Assembly: GCA_937927755.1 (NCBI GenBank) | Contig: CALBDB010000029.1 | Span: 1 to 38,199 of the forward strand | Origin: an uncultured Lysobacterales bacterium | Lineage (GTDB): Bacteria; Pseudomonadota; Gammaproteobacteria; Xanthomonadales; SZUA-36 | DNA: 38,199 nt | Direction of reading: 5' to 3' | Shown here: one piece after another, positions 5,913-20,744 of the stretch | Position numbering within the stretch: position 1 is the stretch's first letter | How the letters are laid out: each line of letters begins with the position of its first letter | The notes under the pieces: generated by a model | What the model was told of the DNA's origin: nothing | Seen by the model: the letters and a program-made list of their open reading frames with translations, nothing else | Databases searched by the model: none | Program-made: the position numbers and the translations under genes

Positions 5913-7604
5913 TCAGTCGATAATTTCTGTCATCACCCTTCCACGTGTGCCACTTGGGTATTTCACTCCCAGGTAGGCTGAAATTGTGGGCGCCACGTCA
6001 ACAGTCTCGGCTCGCCGGCCAACCCGTCCGGGTTTGACCCCAGGCCCCATCCAGATTACCGGCACATGGGAGTCATAGAACCAGGGCTGGCCATGCGAAC
6101 CACTCACTGCCATTCCATCAAACTCCCCCACGAACCACTGCGGATTGAAGACCACGTAGATATCACCGGACCGGTCCTCGTTGTAGTTTGCCAATATGGC
6201 CGCAGTGACTGGTGTGTCAACGACTGCGCCGGCTCGCAAGTCATAACTCGAAACTGCATAAGCGATACCGGGTAGTTTGCGAAGTTCTTCAGCGACCCGC
6301 CTTGCCACCACTGAAATATCAAAATCCAGCTCTGCAATTGCTTCGTGGTTCAGGTAGAAATAAGGCTGGAAAAACTGATCGACCAGCTCTTTAGCGACAC
6401 CGAACTCCGCCTTCAAGGCGGCTATGCCTTCCGTCTTATCGACGTTTTCGAAGTTGAAGTAGTTGCTATCGACACCAAGTGACTGCAAGTATCCGGGTGC
6501 TTCCGAGCCACCATGGTCGGCTGATAGCACAACCAGTGTTTTATCAAGGCCCACCTTTTTGTCGACAAAGGCAAAAAGCTCGGCCAGTGTGCGATCAAGC
6601 TGGTGCAGGTTGTCCTCGGCTTCGAGACTGGACGGTCCGAAAAAATGACCAACATAATCGGTTGACGAGAAACTGATTGCCAGGTAGTCCAGCACATCAT
6701 CCGTGCCGATGCCCTCTGCAGTCATCAGGTCCTTGGCAAAATCAAGAACGATTTCGTCACCGGCCGGAGACAAGGTCAGGAGCGTGGTGAAGTACGGACT
6801 GTCAGCCTTGCCAAAGGGATGAGGAAAGGTTCGTCCATAGCCCGGAAAATCGACCTCCCACTCCTGATCGTCAGCGTTGCCGAAGAGGTAAGCGGATGGC
6901 TTCTTGGAGAGTTCCCATGACTTGCCCTCGTAAGCGTTCGGAACTCCCTTGGCGTTCCAGGCCTCCACCCAGTCAGGATATTCATCCTTGTAAAAGGTAC
7001 TGGTGACCATCTGGCTGGCGGACTTCGAAAACCAGTAGGCGGTGCCGGCATGGCCAGCCATGGTGATAGCACCACGGTCCTTGATCGAGACACCGAAAAC
7101 CTTGGCTTTTGGGCCGGCAGACAAGATAATCTCGTCGCTAATCGTCGTGGTCCGGATCGCACGCGGCGAGCGCCCCTGCGTGGTGGCGACCTTTTGAGTC
7201 GGATCGATCTCGGTGCTAGCGTCGACACCACCACCCTCACCGAGCAACGGATGGTCAGCATCCTCGACATTGTAAATAAGCTGGCCTGTTAAGCGGTCAA
7301 GCCAGACGTTGCCGACCATGCCGTGAATCGCAGGGTCAGTACCTGTGGCAAGGGTTGTGTGGCCAACCACAGTTTCGGTGTTGGCATGGCGGTGATGTGC
7401 GTCAACATAGAACGCACCCGTATCCAACAGTAGCTGGAAACCGCCCTCGCCGTATCCTGCGGAGTAGCGGTCGATCAAATCGCCTCGCAACTGGTCGACC
7501 GTGATCTGCAGTACCAGATTAACTGGCCGTTCGGCGTTCTGGGCCCAGGCTGTTACTGATGACACCAAAACCGTAGTTGCTATCGCTGCTCTTATCCTGT
7601 TCAT
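5913..7604 (-). CDS. Secreted PafA-type alkaline phosphatase (phosphate monoesterase)
   Basis: The 563-aa protein carries a signal peptide (about 1-21) and the complete alkaline-phosphatase-superfamily zinc site: Asp37 (VDQLRGD), Thr78 as nucleophile in TVVGHTT, Asp316 and His320 (DYVGH), Asp363-His364 (SADHGG) and His504 (GSHGQPW). Asn99 (VGNVWLD), Lys176 and Arg178 (KDR) match the substrate-binding residues of PafA, which favour phosphate monoesters over diesters. The protein would release phosphate from organic esters in the periplasm. GGAGGT sits 4 nt before the ATG, predicting strong translation. PafA enzymes are often calcium-activated and not repressed by phosphate; no Pho box was recognised here. 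A nucleotide pyrophosphatase is less likely because of the KDR motif. Confidence 0.88.
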   Translation of the reverse strand: MNRIRAAIATTVLVSSVTAWAQNAERPVNLVLQITVDQLRGDLIDRYSAGYGEGGFQLLLDTGAFYVDAHHRHANTETVVGHTTLATGTDPAIHGMVGNVWLDRLTGQLIYNVEDADHPLLGEGGGVDASTEIDPTQKVATTQGRSPRAIRTTTISDEIILSAGPKAKVFGVSIKDRGAITMAGHAGTAYWFSKSASQMVTSTFYKDEYPDWVEAWNAKGVPNAYEGKSWELSKKPSAYLFGNADDQEWEVDFPGYGRTFPHPFGKADSPYFTTLLTLSPAGDEIVLDFAKDLMTAEGIGTDDVLDYLAISFSSTDYVGHFFGPSSLEAEDNLHQLDRTLAELFAFVDKKVGLDKTLVVLSADHGGSEAPGYLQSLGVDSNYFNFENVDKTEGIAALKAEFGVAKELVDQFFQPYFYLNHEAIAELDFDISVVARRVAEELRKLPGIAYAVSSYDLRAGAVVDTPVTAAILANYNEDRSGDIYVVFNPQWFVGEFDGMAVSGSHGQPWFYDSHVPVIWMGPGVKPGRVGRRAETVDVAPTISAYLGVKYPSGTRGRVMTEIID

Positions 7605-7853: not shown

Positions 7854-8852
7854 TCACAGGCTCAGCCGAAATTCCTGTGGTGAAACTCCGTTTCTGAGTC
7901 GAAAAGCCCTGGTGAAATTGGAAGCGTCGGTATACCCGAGGTCAAATGCGATATCAGCGATGTGTTCGTCGGAGTCACGCAAGCGTTTAACAGATTCCTG
8001 ATTTCGGGTTTCTGCCAACAATTGTGAGTAGGATGTGCCATGTTCGGAGAGCACGCGCTGCAGCGTGCGCCTGGTCATCGCCAGGGATTCAGCAACGTAA
8101 TCAATATGCAGCTTGTGCTCATAAAGCAGCGACACTATCTGCAACTGCACAAGGTCGGAGATGTCCTCGGGCAAGCGCTGTGCCGCGATGGATTCCTCCA
8201 TTTGCTCAAAATGAAAGCTGGAGTTCGAAAACGGCATTCCCATGGCTGCACGGGGAATCACCATGTAACTCCCTTCGGCTCCTTTCACGATTTGCGATTC
8301 CGCAAAGCAGCTATTTTCCGGAAAGGCTTCTTCACTTTTGTAAGTCAGGCAGAGTTTTCCAGGTGACCAATCCCTGCCCAGAGCCCTTCTGAGTGCCATT
8401 GTCGTTGTAGCCAGGGTTTCCAATTGCGACTGGTAGGGGCCGATTCCAGGCTCGCCGACCGTAGCCACGTTGAGATGAATCTCCTCGCCATGGTAGGACA
8501 GCCATATACGCTGACCCGTGATGAGCATATCGTAAAGCTCGATGCCCTTGCGGAGGTAGTCATAGACGGTCGTTGAGCGTCTCAGCCGTTTGCCAACAGG
8601 TCCGAGATCACGCAAATGATTACTCATGCCCATATACAGACCAAGATGCTCGGTACCTGTGGCCTCACAGGCCAGTTCCGCAAACCTGAAAATGCTTTTC
8701 ATACAAATCGCAGCTTCAGGGTGATCAAGCAGCTCTTCGGGGATGTGAGATTCTGCCAACAGACGTTCCAGCGATGCACCCAGGTTATCCACTAACTTTG
8801 CATAGCGCAGTAAAAACGCCACCCTCGTCACCGGTATTGATCTGTCGATCAT
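7854..8852 (-). CDS. AraC-family transcriptional regulator (OruR/ArgR-like architecture)
   Basis: This 332-aa protein has an N-terminal arabinose-binding-like domain (about 20-205) of the type seen in OruR/VirF-like regulators, with AELACEATGTEHLGLYMG near residue 57. The C-terminal double helix-turn-helix includes DYVAESLAMTRRTLQRVLSEHG and the AraC signature IADIAFDLGYTDASNFTRAFR. It binds DNA in the cytoplasm, probably with a small-molecule ligand. AGGTG precedes the ATG by 5 nt. It is transcribed away from the row of exported-protein genes starting at 9157, so it may regulate them and itself through the 304-nt gap. The ligand is unknown. Confidence 0.85.
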   Translation of the reverse strand: MIDRSIPVTRVAFLLRYAKLVDNLGASLERLLAESHIPEELLDHPEAAICMKSIFRFAELACEATGTEHLGLYMGMSNHLRDLGPVGKRLRRSTTVYDYLRKGIELYDMLITGQRIWLSYHGEEIHLNVATVGEPGIGPYQSQLETLATTTMALRRALGRDWSPGKLCLTYKSEEAFPENSCFAESQIVKGAEGSYMVIPRAAMGMPFSNSSFHFEQMEESIAAQRLPEDISDLVQLQIVSLLYEHKLHIDYVAESLAMTRRTLQRVLSEHGTSYSQLLAETRNQESVKRLRDSDEHIADIAFDLGYTDASNFTRAFRLRNGVSPQEFRLSL

Positions 8853-16292: not shown

Positions 16293-17291
16293 TCAGGCCG
16301 CCCTGTTGCGCTCACGGGCTTGCGTGGGTGAATGCCCAAACCAACTCCTGAATGCACGGGAGAACGCGCTGCTATCGGTGTAACCCAGCAGAAACGCAAT
16401 CTCTGTAAAGCTATAATCGTCGTCCGAAATGTAGCGTTTGGCAAGATCCATTCTGACCTGCGCTAACAATGACCGGAACGTCTCATCATTTTCACGCAGC
16501 TTGCGGTGCAATGTTCGTTTACTCATGTTGAGAACGTCGGCCAGGGTGTCCTGGGTGACACGGCCGGAAGGCAGTTGCTCCATGATTCCCAGCCGGCTTC
16601 GGTTAAGAACACTATTTCGGTCCAGTTTCATCAGGTGTCTCCTGATGACATCCTCATGTACGGTCACGAGTTCCGAGTTGGATCCTGTCAGAGGTGTGTC
16701 TGCGTCCCTTGCACTGATGGCAAGACTGTTTTCGGGCTGTTCAAATTGGACCTTCACTCCGAAATATTCAAACCAGGGAGAAGGATCGGGTGGCAGCGGT
16801 CGTTTTAACCTGACCTCGACGGGCTCCAGATCCATACCAAAATTCATCCTGCACAACTGCAACAAACTGGCCAGCAGGGCGTCCCCCATCAGGTTGGGAT
16901 GGGTGGGCTGCCGCAACATCCGGTAGGTGACACGGACGCGGTCTGATAGCTCCTCCACCTGCATGTCGATCTGCTCATTGAACATCCGGTGAAATCTACT
17001 GGCACGCAGCAGCGCAGTACGCAGGCAGGCGCTGGCCAGCCAGGCGTGCCCGAAGGCCCCCAGGTGTGAGGGATGCAGGTACTGTGCGGAGCGAATACCC
17101 ACCGTTGGATCGTTGATCAGCGAAGCCGCATGGGCCAGCGCGGCATCGTATTCAGCAAAGCTGACGCGTTCGACATATGCCGAGTCATTGCCGGGTCGAA
17201 AAAGCGACTGGTCGATAACTTGCCCCGGATCCAGGCTGTATGACTCCAACGTGCGCCACAGGTTGCCGAGCAAGGGAGCATAAACAGACAT
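16293..17291 (-). CDS. AraC-family transcriptional regulator
   Basis: This 332-aa protein has the same architecture and length as the regulator at 7854 but is clearly different in sequence. The N-terminal arabinose-binding-like domain has HPSHLGAFGHAWLASACLRTAL near 69. The C-terminal double HTH contains LADVLNMSKRTLHRKLRENDE and FTEIAFLLGYTDSSAFSRAFRSWFG. It starts 208 nt from the divergent secreted matrixin pair, so control of that pair is a reasonable inference. The start ATG at 17291 has AGGA about 8 nt upstream. Ligand unknown. Confidence 0.85.
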   Translation of the reverse strand: MSVYAPLLGNLWRTLESYSLDPGQVIDQSLFRPGNDSAYVERVSFAEYDAALAHAASLINDPTVGIRSAQYLHPSHLGAFGHAWLASACLRTALLRASRFHRMFNEQIDMQVEELSDRVRVTYRMLRQPTHPNLMGDALLASLLQLCRMNFGMDLEPVEVRLKRPLPPDPSPWFEYFGVKVQFEQPENSLAISARDADTPLTGSNSELVTVHEDVIRRHLMKLDRNSVLNRSRLGIMEQLPSGRVTQDTLADVLNMSKRTLHRKLRENDETFRSLLAQVRMDLAKRYISDDDYSFTEIAFLLGYTDSSAFSRAFRSWFGHSPTQARERNRAA

Positions 17292-17441
17292 GTGATCTAT
17301 CCTGATGGAAGTGGCTCTTCATTTTCATTAAAAAAGTCGAAATCGTCAAACGACTGGCTTGATTTGCACTGCGGCGGATTCGGCAAAGCCATAACCTCGC
17401 GCCACCGCTTCGGGTGCAGTTCGCCGTATCCGGGCATCCAG

Positions 17442-17465
17442 CCCGCAAGTGTTGCGCAGTGCGGG
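17442..17465. promoter_or_regulatory. Inverted repeat upstream of the matrixin pair
   Basis: CCCGCA (17442-17447) is the reverse complement of TGCGGG (17460-17465), around a 12-nt centre, 34 nt before the start at 17500. It could be an operator or a leader hairpin. The gap 17292-17499 otherwise shows only a weak AGTCG/CGACT stem with a T-run on the minus strand near 17330-17355. No promoter was placed. Confidence 0.3.
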
Positions 17466-17499
17466 ACATTAATCAGAAGTCAAACCACAGGAGTCAATA

Positions 17500-18141
17500 A
17501 TGAATAACGCAATTCATAGGGCCTTCCGCGGTGTAACAATTTTTGCCTCCATTGCCATCACGGCATTGAGCCTGAACGTTGCCCATGCGAAGAACATAAA
17601 GAAGCAGAACCTACTGGAACTGATGACACACACCGACTCAATCATGGTCGGCACCGTCTCCGGGATAACAGACGGTTTCCACAAAGGTCTTCCCTTTACC
17701 GAGATCTCACTGGATGTCGGCCAGAGCATCAAGGGTGACCATGGTTCTACATACACCTTCCGCCAGTTTGGCCTGATCGAACCCAAATCCATGGGTGACG
17801 GCCGTGTCAACCTGATGGTCACGCCCGCTGGCTGGCCGACATACGTCAAGGGCGAGCAGGTTATGCTGTTCCTGCACAAGCCAGCTTCCGAGACAGGCTT
17901 CCAGACTACCTCCGGCCTGACCCAGGGCAAGTTCACCATCAAGGGCTCTCAAATTGCCAATGACATCGGCAATGACGGCATGTTTGCCGGTGTGAAAATC
18001 AACGGCAAGATGACCGCGACCCAGCAGGACCTGGTCAACCAGCCCGGTGGCGCCTACGCGGCCGAAGCATTTCTTACGCTGGTAAAAACCGCGGTCGAGA
18101 ATAACTGGATCGAAAATGGAGTTATGACCAATGAAGACTAA
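17500..18141 (+). CDS. Secreted small beta-rich protein paired with matrixin
   Basis: The 213-aa product has a signal peptide (about 1-30, ending VAHA). The mature domain has the layout DSIMVGTVSGI ... FTEISLDVGQSIKGDHGSTYTFRQFG ... PTYVKGEQVMLFLHKP ... LTQGKFTIKG. That layout (VxGTV, KG..., GExVLLFL, GxxQGKF) recurs in small secreted proteins found next to matrixin-like proteases in other bacteria; I recall the pattern but no family name. AGGAG lies 7 nt before the ATG. The gene overlaps the protease start by 11 nt, so translation is probably coupled. A partner, prodomain-like or substrate-binding role for the protease is inferred only. Confidence 0.7.
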   Translation: MNNAIHRAFRGVTIFASIAITALSLNVAHAKNIKKQNLLELMTHTDSIMVGTVSGITDGFHKGLPFTEISLDVGQSIKGDHGSTYTFRQFGLIEPKSMGDGRVNLMVTPAGWPTYVKGEQVMLFLHKPASETGFQTTSGLTQGKFTIKGSQIANDIGNDGMFAGVKINGKMTATQQDLVNQPGGAYAAEAFLTLVKTAVENNWIENGVMTNED

Positions 18142-20689
18142 TAAATTACTGAAAAAGTCGATGGCAGCCGGCATTGCAATCGCCGGATTGACCAGCATCG
18201 CGGCCCAGGCTTACGGGCCACTCTATATTTTTGACTATACCGACGGCACACCCTATCGCTGGGACGTGACGGAGCCGGTACAGGTATACACCGATGGCGG
18301 CAACTTTGCTTCCGGTACCGTTACCTTGTATGACTCGAACCTGCCGACCTGCAATGCCGAAGGTGGCTGGCAGTGTTACTACGACCTCTATGTCGAGTTC
18401 ACCAACGAGCAAGGTGTGGCAAGAGTTGCAGAATCACTGGCATCCTGGTCAGGCGTGGCAACATCCTCCTTCCAGGCGGAAATTGCGGGCACCTTTGCAG
18501 ATATCGGTATCGGTGGTGATGATGGCGATATCACGGGAGCTGAGGAAGAATTCAGCACCGATGAAAACGGTGAAATCGTCCATGAAATCCTCGGCACCGT
18601 GAACAGCGGTGGCATCCACGTGGTCTTCGATGAGCATGGTGACGTGATGCGAAATGTGTTGGGTGTGCCTTACGGTGTACTGGGCGTCGCATCGCCTGAA
18701 TGGGCCGACGAATCAACCGGTACTATCACAGAAGGCTGGGTCTTTATCGGTGGTGCTGAAACCTATTACAACGACACTGAACTCGAACAAATGGCGGGTG
18801 TTATTACCCATGAACTGGGCCATTCTTTTAACCTGGCGCACACCCAGACCAACGGTCACCTGGTGATGTATAGCTGGGGCATTGTGTCAGCCGGCCCGAT
18901 TGATTGTTCTGCTCACTATGAAGTCGGCGGTGAATACCAACTGCCATTTCCGCAGTTCTCGGGCCCTAACCCGGAACACATGTCAGTCATGTATCCGTAC
19001 ATCAATAACAACCCGGATTCATGGAACAGCACTGGTGCGCACCAGGCGACAGCCAGCACCGCAGAAGACTTTGCGGCGATTTCATCAATCTACCCCACTG
19101 CCAGTTTCGCCTCTGACACCGGCACCATTTCCGGCTCTGTCACCTATCCGTTCACTAGCGAAGGCGTCATCGGTATCAATATCGTGGCGCGTAACATCGA
19201 CAATCCATTTGAAGATGCCATCACGGTAATGAGTGGCGATTGGAACGACGGCGCCCCGGGTGCTGCACAGGGTACCGGTGAATTCACCATGCGGGGCCTG
19301 ACACCCGGCGCACGCTACGTCATCCACGTGGAGAACATTTTTGCCGGTGGCTTCCCGACACCCCAGGTCGCATTGCCTGGGCCGGAAGAGTATTTCAGCG
19401 GCTCTCGTGAAAATGATGACGCCAATTCAGACAATGCCTGTGACTACGAGGAAGTCATCGTTGCTGCAGGTGCAAACCAGGCTGGTATCGACATCCAGAT
19501 GAATGGCATGAAAAAGGGTCTGAACCTGGTGATCAACCCTGCGCCGAACGGCAACAATGTGACCGAAGACGGCCACGTTATGGCGGGTAACGTTGATAAC
19601 AGCTACGGCAACGCCATCAGCTGGGTTCATCATGATGGGAATGACCAATACACCATATTACCTATGGGTGGCATTAGGCTCAGTGACAATGGCTCCATAA
19701 TTGCAGGCCGGGTATCTGTTGATGATCAGTATCTGCCGGCGCGACTGCTACCGGGCAAAGACATCGAGATTCTTCCCCCAGCGGGCAATAATGCCTGTGA
19801 CCAGGGCGGTGGAATCGATGAATACTATTCCAACTTTGCCATCTCACCCAATGGCGACACCATGGGCGGCTTCTTGTGGAATTGTGACTATGTTGAAGGC
19901 CTGAAAAACTACAAGGTTTCCGCCGCCACATACAGTGATGCGGATGGCTGGACCATTCTGAACGACCATTACGACAACCGCAGTGCACGCGTGAACTCGC
20001 TGGCAAATGACGGAACCGCCGTTGGCTGGTCCGAAACGTCTGTAGGATGGTGGGAAGGTACTGTCTGGAAGAACGGTGAAGAAATCAGCATGCAGAATGT
20101 TGCCCCCGCAAATATCATGGATATCGGTGAGGCGACAGCAGTGAGTTCCGACGGTTCAATGGTCGTGGGTATCAACTCATGGGATGACCAGTGGAACCAG
20201 CGTGGATACACCTACAACACCCTCACCGGTGAGCTGACAATCCTGGAAATGTCCGAGGAATGCCCCTGGTGGGATTGGTTCTGCTTTGGTTCGAAACCAT
20301 TCAACCCTTACGATATCTCCGATGACGGCACCATGGTCGGTGCATTTGGTACAGCCAGTGGTGCTGGTGCGACCATCGTCAGTGATGTGCTGGGAACGCA
20401 GAAACTGGTTGAATTCCTGAAAGCACAGGGTGTGATGAACGCCAACGACCTTGGCATAGCCTCCACTGCCAACAAGATCTCCAGCAACGGCAAGCATATT
20501 GTCGGCTGGACAGCGGTTGACGGTTACTTTGGCAGCTTCAAGCTGACACTTGACCAGCTTTATGTTTGCCGCAAAGGCAAAACCAGGCAGGTGGGTTACC
20601 CCGGTGGTGTTGCAGACCAGCTGATGCAAGGCGCGACCCTGGGTATGTGTGAAGCAGACCTGCCCTTGCAGTACAAAGGCAACTTCTGA
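18131..20689 (+). CDS. Secreted matrixin-like metalloprotease with HAF-type repeats
   Basis: The 852-aa protein has a signal peptide (about 1-27) and a metzincin zinc site, HELGHSFNLAH (227-237), with Glu228 as base, and a Met-turn MSVMYP (Met287). After the catalytic domain (about 30-325), a Gly/Asn-rich beta segment (330-460, GTISGSVTYP start) leads to at least six short repeats of the form S-x-D/N-G-x-x-V-x-G (for example ISPNGDTMGG, SSDGSMVVG, ISDDGTMVGA, ISSNGKHIVG). These are HAF-like extracellular repeats, perhaps a beta-propeller. The end, YVCRKGKTRQV...GATLGMC, resembles a cysteine-bounded motif seen at the C-terminus of some secreted proteins. The start overlaps the upstream gene with GGAG 9 nt before it. 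Probable role: extracellular protein degradation or remodelling. Confidence 0.82.
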   Translation: MKTNKLLKKSMAAGIAIAGLTSIAAQAYGPLYIFDYTDGTPYRWDVTEPVQVYTDGGNFASGTVTLYDSNLPTCNAEGGWQCYYDLYVEFTNEQGVARVAESLASWSGVATSSFQAEIAGTFADIGIGGDDGDITGAEEEFSTDENGEIVHEILGTVNSGGIHVVFDEHGDVMRNVLGVPYGVLGVASPEWADESTGTITEGWVFIGGAETYYNDTELEQMAGVITHELGHSFNLAHTQTNGHLVMYSWGIVSAGPIDCSAHYEVGGEYQLPFPQFSGPNPEHMSVMYPYINNNPDSWNSTGAHQATASTAEDFAAISSIYPTASFASDTGTISGSVTYPFTSEGVIGINIVARNIDNPFEDAITVMSGDWNDGAPGAAQGTGEFTMRGLTPGARYVIHVENIFAGGFPTPQVALPGPEEYFSGSRENDDANSDNACDYEEVIVAAGANQAGIDIQMNGMKKGLNLVINPAPNGNNVTEDGHVMAGNVDNSYGNAISWVHHDGNDQYTILPMGGIRLSDNGSIIAGRVSVDDQYLPARLLPGKDIEILPPAGNNACDQGGGIDEYYSNFAISPNGDTMGGFLWNCDYVEGLKNYKVSAATYSDADGWTILNDHYDNRSARVNSLANDGTAVGWSETSVGWWEGTVWKNGEEISMQNVAPANIMDIGEATAVSSDGSMVVGINSWDDQWNQRGYTYNTLTGELTILEMSEECPWWDWFCFGSKPFNPYDISDDGTMVGAFGTASGAGATIVSDVLGTQKLVEFLKAQGVMNANDLGIASTANKISSNGKHIVGWTAVDGYFGSFKLTLDQLYVCRKGKTRQVGYPGGVADQLMQGATLGMCEADLPLQYKGNF

Positions 20690-20715
20690 ACACGATCTAA
20701 AACGAAGTACGAAAG

Positions 20716-20744
20716 AAGACGGCTCGCAAGAGCCGTCTTTTTTT
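20716..20744 (+). terminator. Intrinsic terminator of the matrixin transcript
   Basis: AAGACGGCTC (20716-20725) pairs perfectly with GAGCCGTCTT (20730-20739) around the tetraloop GCAA, and a T-run continues to 20744. It lies 27 nt after the protease stop codon. It is a strong factor-independent terminator on the plus strand. Confidence 0.93.

Follow-up and report, generated by a model that had tools for sequence, protein, structure and literature searches.

What does a small secreted protein do when its gene runs directly into that of a secreted protease? The question is raised by two genes in contig CALBDB010000029.1 from an uncultured Lysobacterales bacterium, of which we analysed positions 1-38,199 (referred to below as the window). 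The genes belong to a module at 16293-20744, described in a first-pass annotation as a small secreted protein and a matrixin-like protease divergent from an AraC regulator, with the small protein suggested to be a partner, chaperone, inhibitor or adaptor. We propose, with a probability of roughly 60%, that the two genes encode a secreted, prodomain-less zinc protease resembling matrix metalloproteinases (MMPs) and a dedicated inhibitor resembling the tissue inhibitors of these enzymes (TIMPs), which would hold the protease latent.

The layout of AraC regulator, small protein and protease, with all three open reading frames (ORFs), the divergent regulator and an 11-nt overlap, is present in the sequence as described. 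The small-protein gene (17500-18141, + strand) encodes 213 amino acids, including a signal peptide that extends to about residue 30. Its frame overlaps by 11 nt (18131-18141, + strand; ATGAAGACTAA, read from the sequence) with that of the downstream gene (18131-20689, + strand), which encodes a secreted metzincin of 852 amino acids, and a Shine-Dalgarno-like GGAG lies immediately 5′ of the protease ATG. The overlap probably couples translation of the two genes, and taken by itself suggests that their products are made in equimolar amounts. The two-gene unit is closed by a strong intrinsic terminator, AAGACGGCTC-GCAA-GAGCCGTCTT-TTTTT (20716-20744, + strand), whose last base is also the last of the module. 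This terminator can be read in the sequence but was missed by a simple scan, and was scored by a folding-energy computation (−23.2 kcal/mol, z −8.4).

The pairing is conserved far beyond this contig. A tblastn search of 101 relatives gave ten homologues of the small protein, spread over seven genomes. Nine stand directly upstream of a metzincin gene; the tenth (L018) is at the end of a contig, and the final bases of that contig code for the initial residues of such a protease. Profile searches with the small protein followed, covering 300 genomes of the order, 398 of the phylum and 369 of the class. The resulting 49 loci also count a locus from a Lysobacterales metagenome-assembled genome (L003), loci reached through metzincins, one from the order of a fusion-bearing genome, and two of three copies on Pseudoalteromonas megaplasmids. 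Classification was scripted, with two corrections by hand (L018, and L069, which was shown to be paired) and one variant motif accepted (L059, HEVGHSLLGQVH). The set comprises 36 pairs (in one of which, L106, the metzincin call depends on a doubtful motif), nine natural fusions (L043, L045, L046, L052, L059, L060, L073, L075 and L097) and four loci without a metzincin (L047, L053, L054 and L071), which belong to the weakest profile hits (genome E values of 6e-6 to 9e-4). The first-pass annotation had named a small gene occurring mostly without the protease as grounds for refutation; the loci do not show this, with pairing or fusion at 45 of the 49. Within each pair, the protease gene follows the small gene on the same strand, and the two usually either overlap by 1, 4 or 11 nt or are separated by a gap of a few nt. 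All nine fusions carry the small domain on the N-terminal side of the metzincin. Operon pairing together with fusion into one polypeptide strongly supports the view that the protease has a dedicated partner in the small protein, and the fusions support a physical partnership between them.

The converse dependence was not found. PF00413 matches occur in 36 of the 101 relatives (and once only in the window's own genome), and 30 such loci were fetched from relatives. Eight contained the small domain, including new pairs (L078, L087) and fusions (L079, L097), whereas 21 have a metzincin motif with no small domain within about 1.5 kb, so the idea that every metzincin has a small partner was rejected. 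The dependence is therefore one-way, from the small protein to the protease.

In L003, the AraC gene, small gene and protease gene stand in identical order with an identical 11-nt overlap, at identities to the window of 51% (AraC), 78% (small protein) and 72% (protease). This recurrence, with that of the pair or fusion at 45 of 49 loci, speaks against a chance arrangement. The small contig that carries this triad also has two tandem tyrosine-recombinase-like ORFs (763-2669), which hints that the module may be mobile. A plasmid search with the small protein found three copies, all on the Pseudoalteromonas megaplasmids, plasmid searches with two other family members gave no matches, and a search of phages with the small protein gave none. 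Two genomes have three copies of the module each, as pairs in G019 (L014, L017, L020) and as fusions in G997 (L060, L073, L075), which suggests duplication and specialisation.

The protease consists of a signal peptide, a matrixin-like catalytic domain (approximately residues 28-330), a weak CarboxypepD_reg-like domain (332-401), a long C-terminal region and a C-terminal cysteine motif. The label matrixin-like fits, though marginally by Pfam: PF00413 scored 26.2 and 23.3 bits in two scans, against a cut-off of 24. The zinc motif HELGHSFNLAH (residues 227-237, window 18809-18841) retains the zinc ligands and the Glu, with Asn in place of Gly, and is followed by the Met-turn MYP (residues 287-289). 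The catalytic residues are invariant across 17 aligned sequences. The Asn is shared by most of the nearer paired proteases (window, L003, L014-L017, L019, L020, L040, L048, L049, L051, L055), whereas more distant paired proteases have Gly. When the protease model was searched against PDB structures, ranks 1-35 were all MMP catalytic domains, with E values of at least 0.019. The catalytic domain directly follows the signal peptide; both a prodomain and a cysteine switch are absent. The long C-terminal region has no Pfam match, and in relatives unrelated sequence takes its place. In the window the C-terminus (20560-20689) contains VCRKGKTRQVGYPGGVADQLMQGATLGMCE, which has no Pfam name, and a similar cysteine-bounded ending is seen in the L003, L014, L015, L048 and L049 proteases. 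Some fusion proteases (L043, L045, L046, L097) end in a short tail, F-x-[DN]-G-F-[DE] or a close variant, which is a candidate C-terminal sorting or secretion tag. The corresponding DNA pattern with a stop codon occurs 30, 12 and 14 times in genomes G279, G253 and G118, but never in a reversed control or in the window's genome.

Neither Pfam nor NCBIfam matches the small protein, and no PDB sequence does so significantly. Its family has a near-invariant G-x-x-Q-G-x-F motif, and we regard it as a genuine, widely conserved and apparently unnamed family of protease partners (no Pfam or NCBIfam model). An AlphaFold2 model based on 33 aligned sequences, from which two plasmid-record sequences were excluded, is confident (pLDDT 94.2, pTM 0.83) and consists of beta strands flanked at either end by short helices. 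In a Foldseek comparison of this model with the PDB, four agrin NtA structures rank first, two of which have titles that state a relation to N-TIMP-1, and later matches include TIMP-2 with MMP-13, TIMP-1 with MMP-3 and MT1-MMP, the C-terminal domain of complement C3, and the meteorin NTR domain. The agrin NtA and TIMP matches have TM scores (by target) of 0.28-0.53 and E values of 3e-3 to 0.14. The predicted TIMP/NTR-type fold is well supported, and among the roles first suggested for the small protein (partner, chaperone, inhibitor or adaptor) this fold points to an inhibitor, although inhibition itself is an inference.

Some bacterial proteins match the Pfam TIMP model itself, and these stand apart from the small-protein family. 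One, at the unpaired locus L053 (1444-1893), is a CTCLPP-type protein that was found with the small-protein profile, scores above the Pfam TIMP cut-off (25.9 versus 23.1 bits) and matches TIMP-3 in sequence; its fetched flanks contain no metzincin motif. This profile link counts independently for the TIMP/NTR-type fold of the family. A second match is above the cut-off (G118:C7:39226-39507) and a third just below it (G019:C13:39324-39632).

A further likeness to TIMPs concerns the mature N-terminus. In TIMP-MMP complexes, the mature N-terminus of the TIMP coordinates the zinc. If the N-terminus of the small protein likewise needs a fixed place, a fixed spacing between it and the fold would be expected. 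The window protein has a signal-peptidase-I-like site (AHA/K), and the distance from this site to the position of the Asp at which the first strand begins is 16 residues in 32 of the 33 aligned sequences, fusions included, and 15 in the other, with cleavage sites assigned by eye. Residue −1 of the predicted site is Ala in 32 of the 33 and Ser in one. TIMP-3, by its PDB sequence, has the corresponding Asp at residue 16 when numbering begins at Cys1. Apart from the block right after the N-terminal one, no other 15-residue block of the small domain is equally gap-free, and the N-terminus of the protease itself varies in length by several residues. Homologues outside the 33-sequence alignment deviate in part from the N-terminal pattern.

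Gene order, fusions, predicted fold, fixed N-terminus and missing prodomain are most simply accounted for by an inhibitor that acts as a prodomain in trans. The inhibitor, encoded first on the shared transcript and exported by Sec, would cap the protease in the periplasm and during its exit from the cell. Its free mature N-terminus would most likely sit in the active-site cleft, like the first residues of a TIMP, placing the backbone amino group close to the zinc, and would thereby stand in for the missing prodomain. In species with fusions, the N-terminal small domain would act likewise in cis. The active protease would be freed once the inhibitor is lost, diluted or cleaved outside the cell.

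Several observations weigh against this proposal. The Foldseek E values are modest (3e-3 at best), and other OB-like folds, which are common, also match; the fold class is therefore likely, but common ancestry with TIMP is not proven. The window's small protein does not have any cysteine, so the CxC motif and disulfides of TIMPs are absent, and PF00965, run on 28 genomes of which nearly all have small genes, fails to match those genes. The protease model is of only fair quality (pLDDT 58). Four remote small-domain homologues lack a nearby metzincin, and L087, a paired homologue, appears to be a lipoprotein and has a longer N-terminal segment, which means that its N-terminus cannot play the part of TIMP Cys1. 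Finally, in the described Listeria pair Mtz-Tim, the metzincin is proposed to cut its TIMP-like lipoprotein partner, and cell-wall effects require the two together (PMC8235301).

This last point leads to the alternatives. As proposed for Mtz-Tim, the small protein could be a substrate or effector that the protease cleaves to release a fragment acting on envelopes or neighbours. That the closest described pair is proposed to act in this way (PMC8235301) speaks for such a role, as does the fact that agrin NtA, like other NTR domains, is a binding module and not an inhibitor. However, the window's small protein lacks a lipobox, its gene precedes that of the protease, and the fusions hold the small domain and the protease in one chain, so we consider a substrate or effector role quite improbable. 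Alternatively, the small protein could serve as a targeting or substrate-binding subunit, guiding the protease to its extracellular substrate. In favour of this are the binding of matrix proteins by NTR-like domains such as agrin NtA (according to the titles of 1jb3 and 1jc7) and the variable C-terminal regions of the proteases. This explanation too seems highly doubtful, because adaptor function would not require a fixed distance to the mature N-terminus, and the C-terminal regions of the protease could already provide binding.

The small protein might otherwise be a dedicated chaperone or foldase, i.e., a trans-acting prodomain that aids folding or export of the protease, with inhibition secondary or absent. 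Its position, N-terminal in the fusions and first in the operon, is that of prodomains that assist folding, and the overlap suggests coupled synthesis. On the other hand, its fold resembles a class of inhibitors, and a free N-terminus of fixed length is a trait of inhibition by TIMPs for which a chaperone has no need. We therefore judge a chaperone unlikely, and prefer the TIMP-like inhibitor.

The regulator of the pair appears to be exchangeable. The AraC-family gene (16293-17291, − strand; 332 amino acids) encodes Arabinose_bd and HTH_18 domains (PF12625, 108.9 bits; PF12833, 80 bits) and is separated from the small-protein ORF by a divergent promoter region of 208 bp (17292-17499). It is likely the local regulator of the pair, but an AraC gene adjoins the pair only in the window and in L003. 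In L015 a Reg_prop/Y_Y_Y/LuxR regulator occupies the upstream position instead, which rules out AraC as a constant part of the module, and in L014 and L040 similar-looking sensor proteins (judged by eye) lie upstream of the pair. The term AraC-linked thus holds for the window and L003 but not as a general trait, and AraC control would be specific to this lineage. Compared with L003, the intergenic region is well conserved only beside the start of the small gene; within its 208 bp no sigma-70-like sites above chance were found, and a search for AraC-binding repeats gave only weak repeats without a counterpart in L003. Elsewhere in the window, a second AraC-type regulator-like ORF (7854-8852) lies approximately 7.4 kb from the first, and adjoins a phosphatase/phosphodiesterase-like ORF (5913-7604).

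If the proposed inhibitor role is correct, an unnamed but widespread bacterial family would be defined as the cognate partner of secreted matrixins, and the latency of bacterial metzincins that lack prodomains would be explained. The family would also offer natural versions of one regulatory design both in trans (operons) and in cis (fusions), and whether TIMP-style inhibition predates animals would become testable. We consider it very unlikely, though conceivable, that the MMP-TIMP system itself predates animals, such that a bacterial matrixin and a homologous TIMP/NTR inhibitor, in an operon or one polypeptide, share its mechanism of an N-terminus in the active site, and animals inherited or acquired the split form.

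With animal MMPs and TIMPs (MEROPS M10A and I35), the window pair shares the matrixin catalytic fold, the predicted TIMP/NTR-like fold and the 16-residue spacing from the N-terminus to the first-strand Asp, but its small protein lacks cysteines and the CxC motif, its protease lacks a cysteine-switch prodomain, and the animal genes do not form an operon. Serralysins differ from the present protease in carrying RTX repeats and leaving the cell by type I secretion. The Pseudomonas alkaline protease and its periplasmic inhibitor AprI resemble the pair in that a metzincin there has a small dedicated protein inhibitor, but the fold of AprI differs (PMC8235301). TIMPs go unmentioned in a 2025 paper that deals with horizontally transferred MMP genes (PMC12587646). 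The Mtz-Tim pair of Listeria (PMC8235301), likened here by its description, likewise combines a secreted metzincin with a small exported TIMP-like protein, and the two genes are adjacent and kept as a unit. In Mtz-Tim, however, the metzincin comes first, Tim is a lipoprotein with a lipobox, and the genes are phage-linked, CI/Cro-regulated and from a Gram-positive lineage, whereas in the present family the partner is encoded ahead of the protease, is in most cases no lipoprotein, is located on gammaproteobacterial chromosomes or megaplasmids, and can be fused in cis. In Tannerella forsythia, potempin genes directly precede the genes of KLIKK proteases, which potempins inhibit (PMC7296668), and we count this, by analogy, in favour of an inhibitor. 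There too a small exported partner is encoded directly upstream of a secreted protease, with one inhibitor per protease, but potempins are lipoproteins and KLIKK proteases have a C-terminal secretion domain ending in KLIKK, a domain that is lacking in the window protease (which ends in ADLPLQYKGNF). The pair described here is thus one that shares the logic of Mtz-Tim and the potempins, differs from them in lineage, in how the protease is built and in either gene order or anchoring, and is extended by natural fusions.

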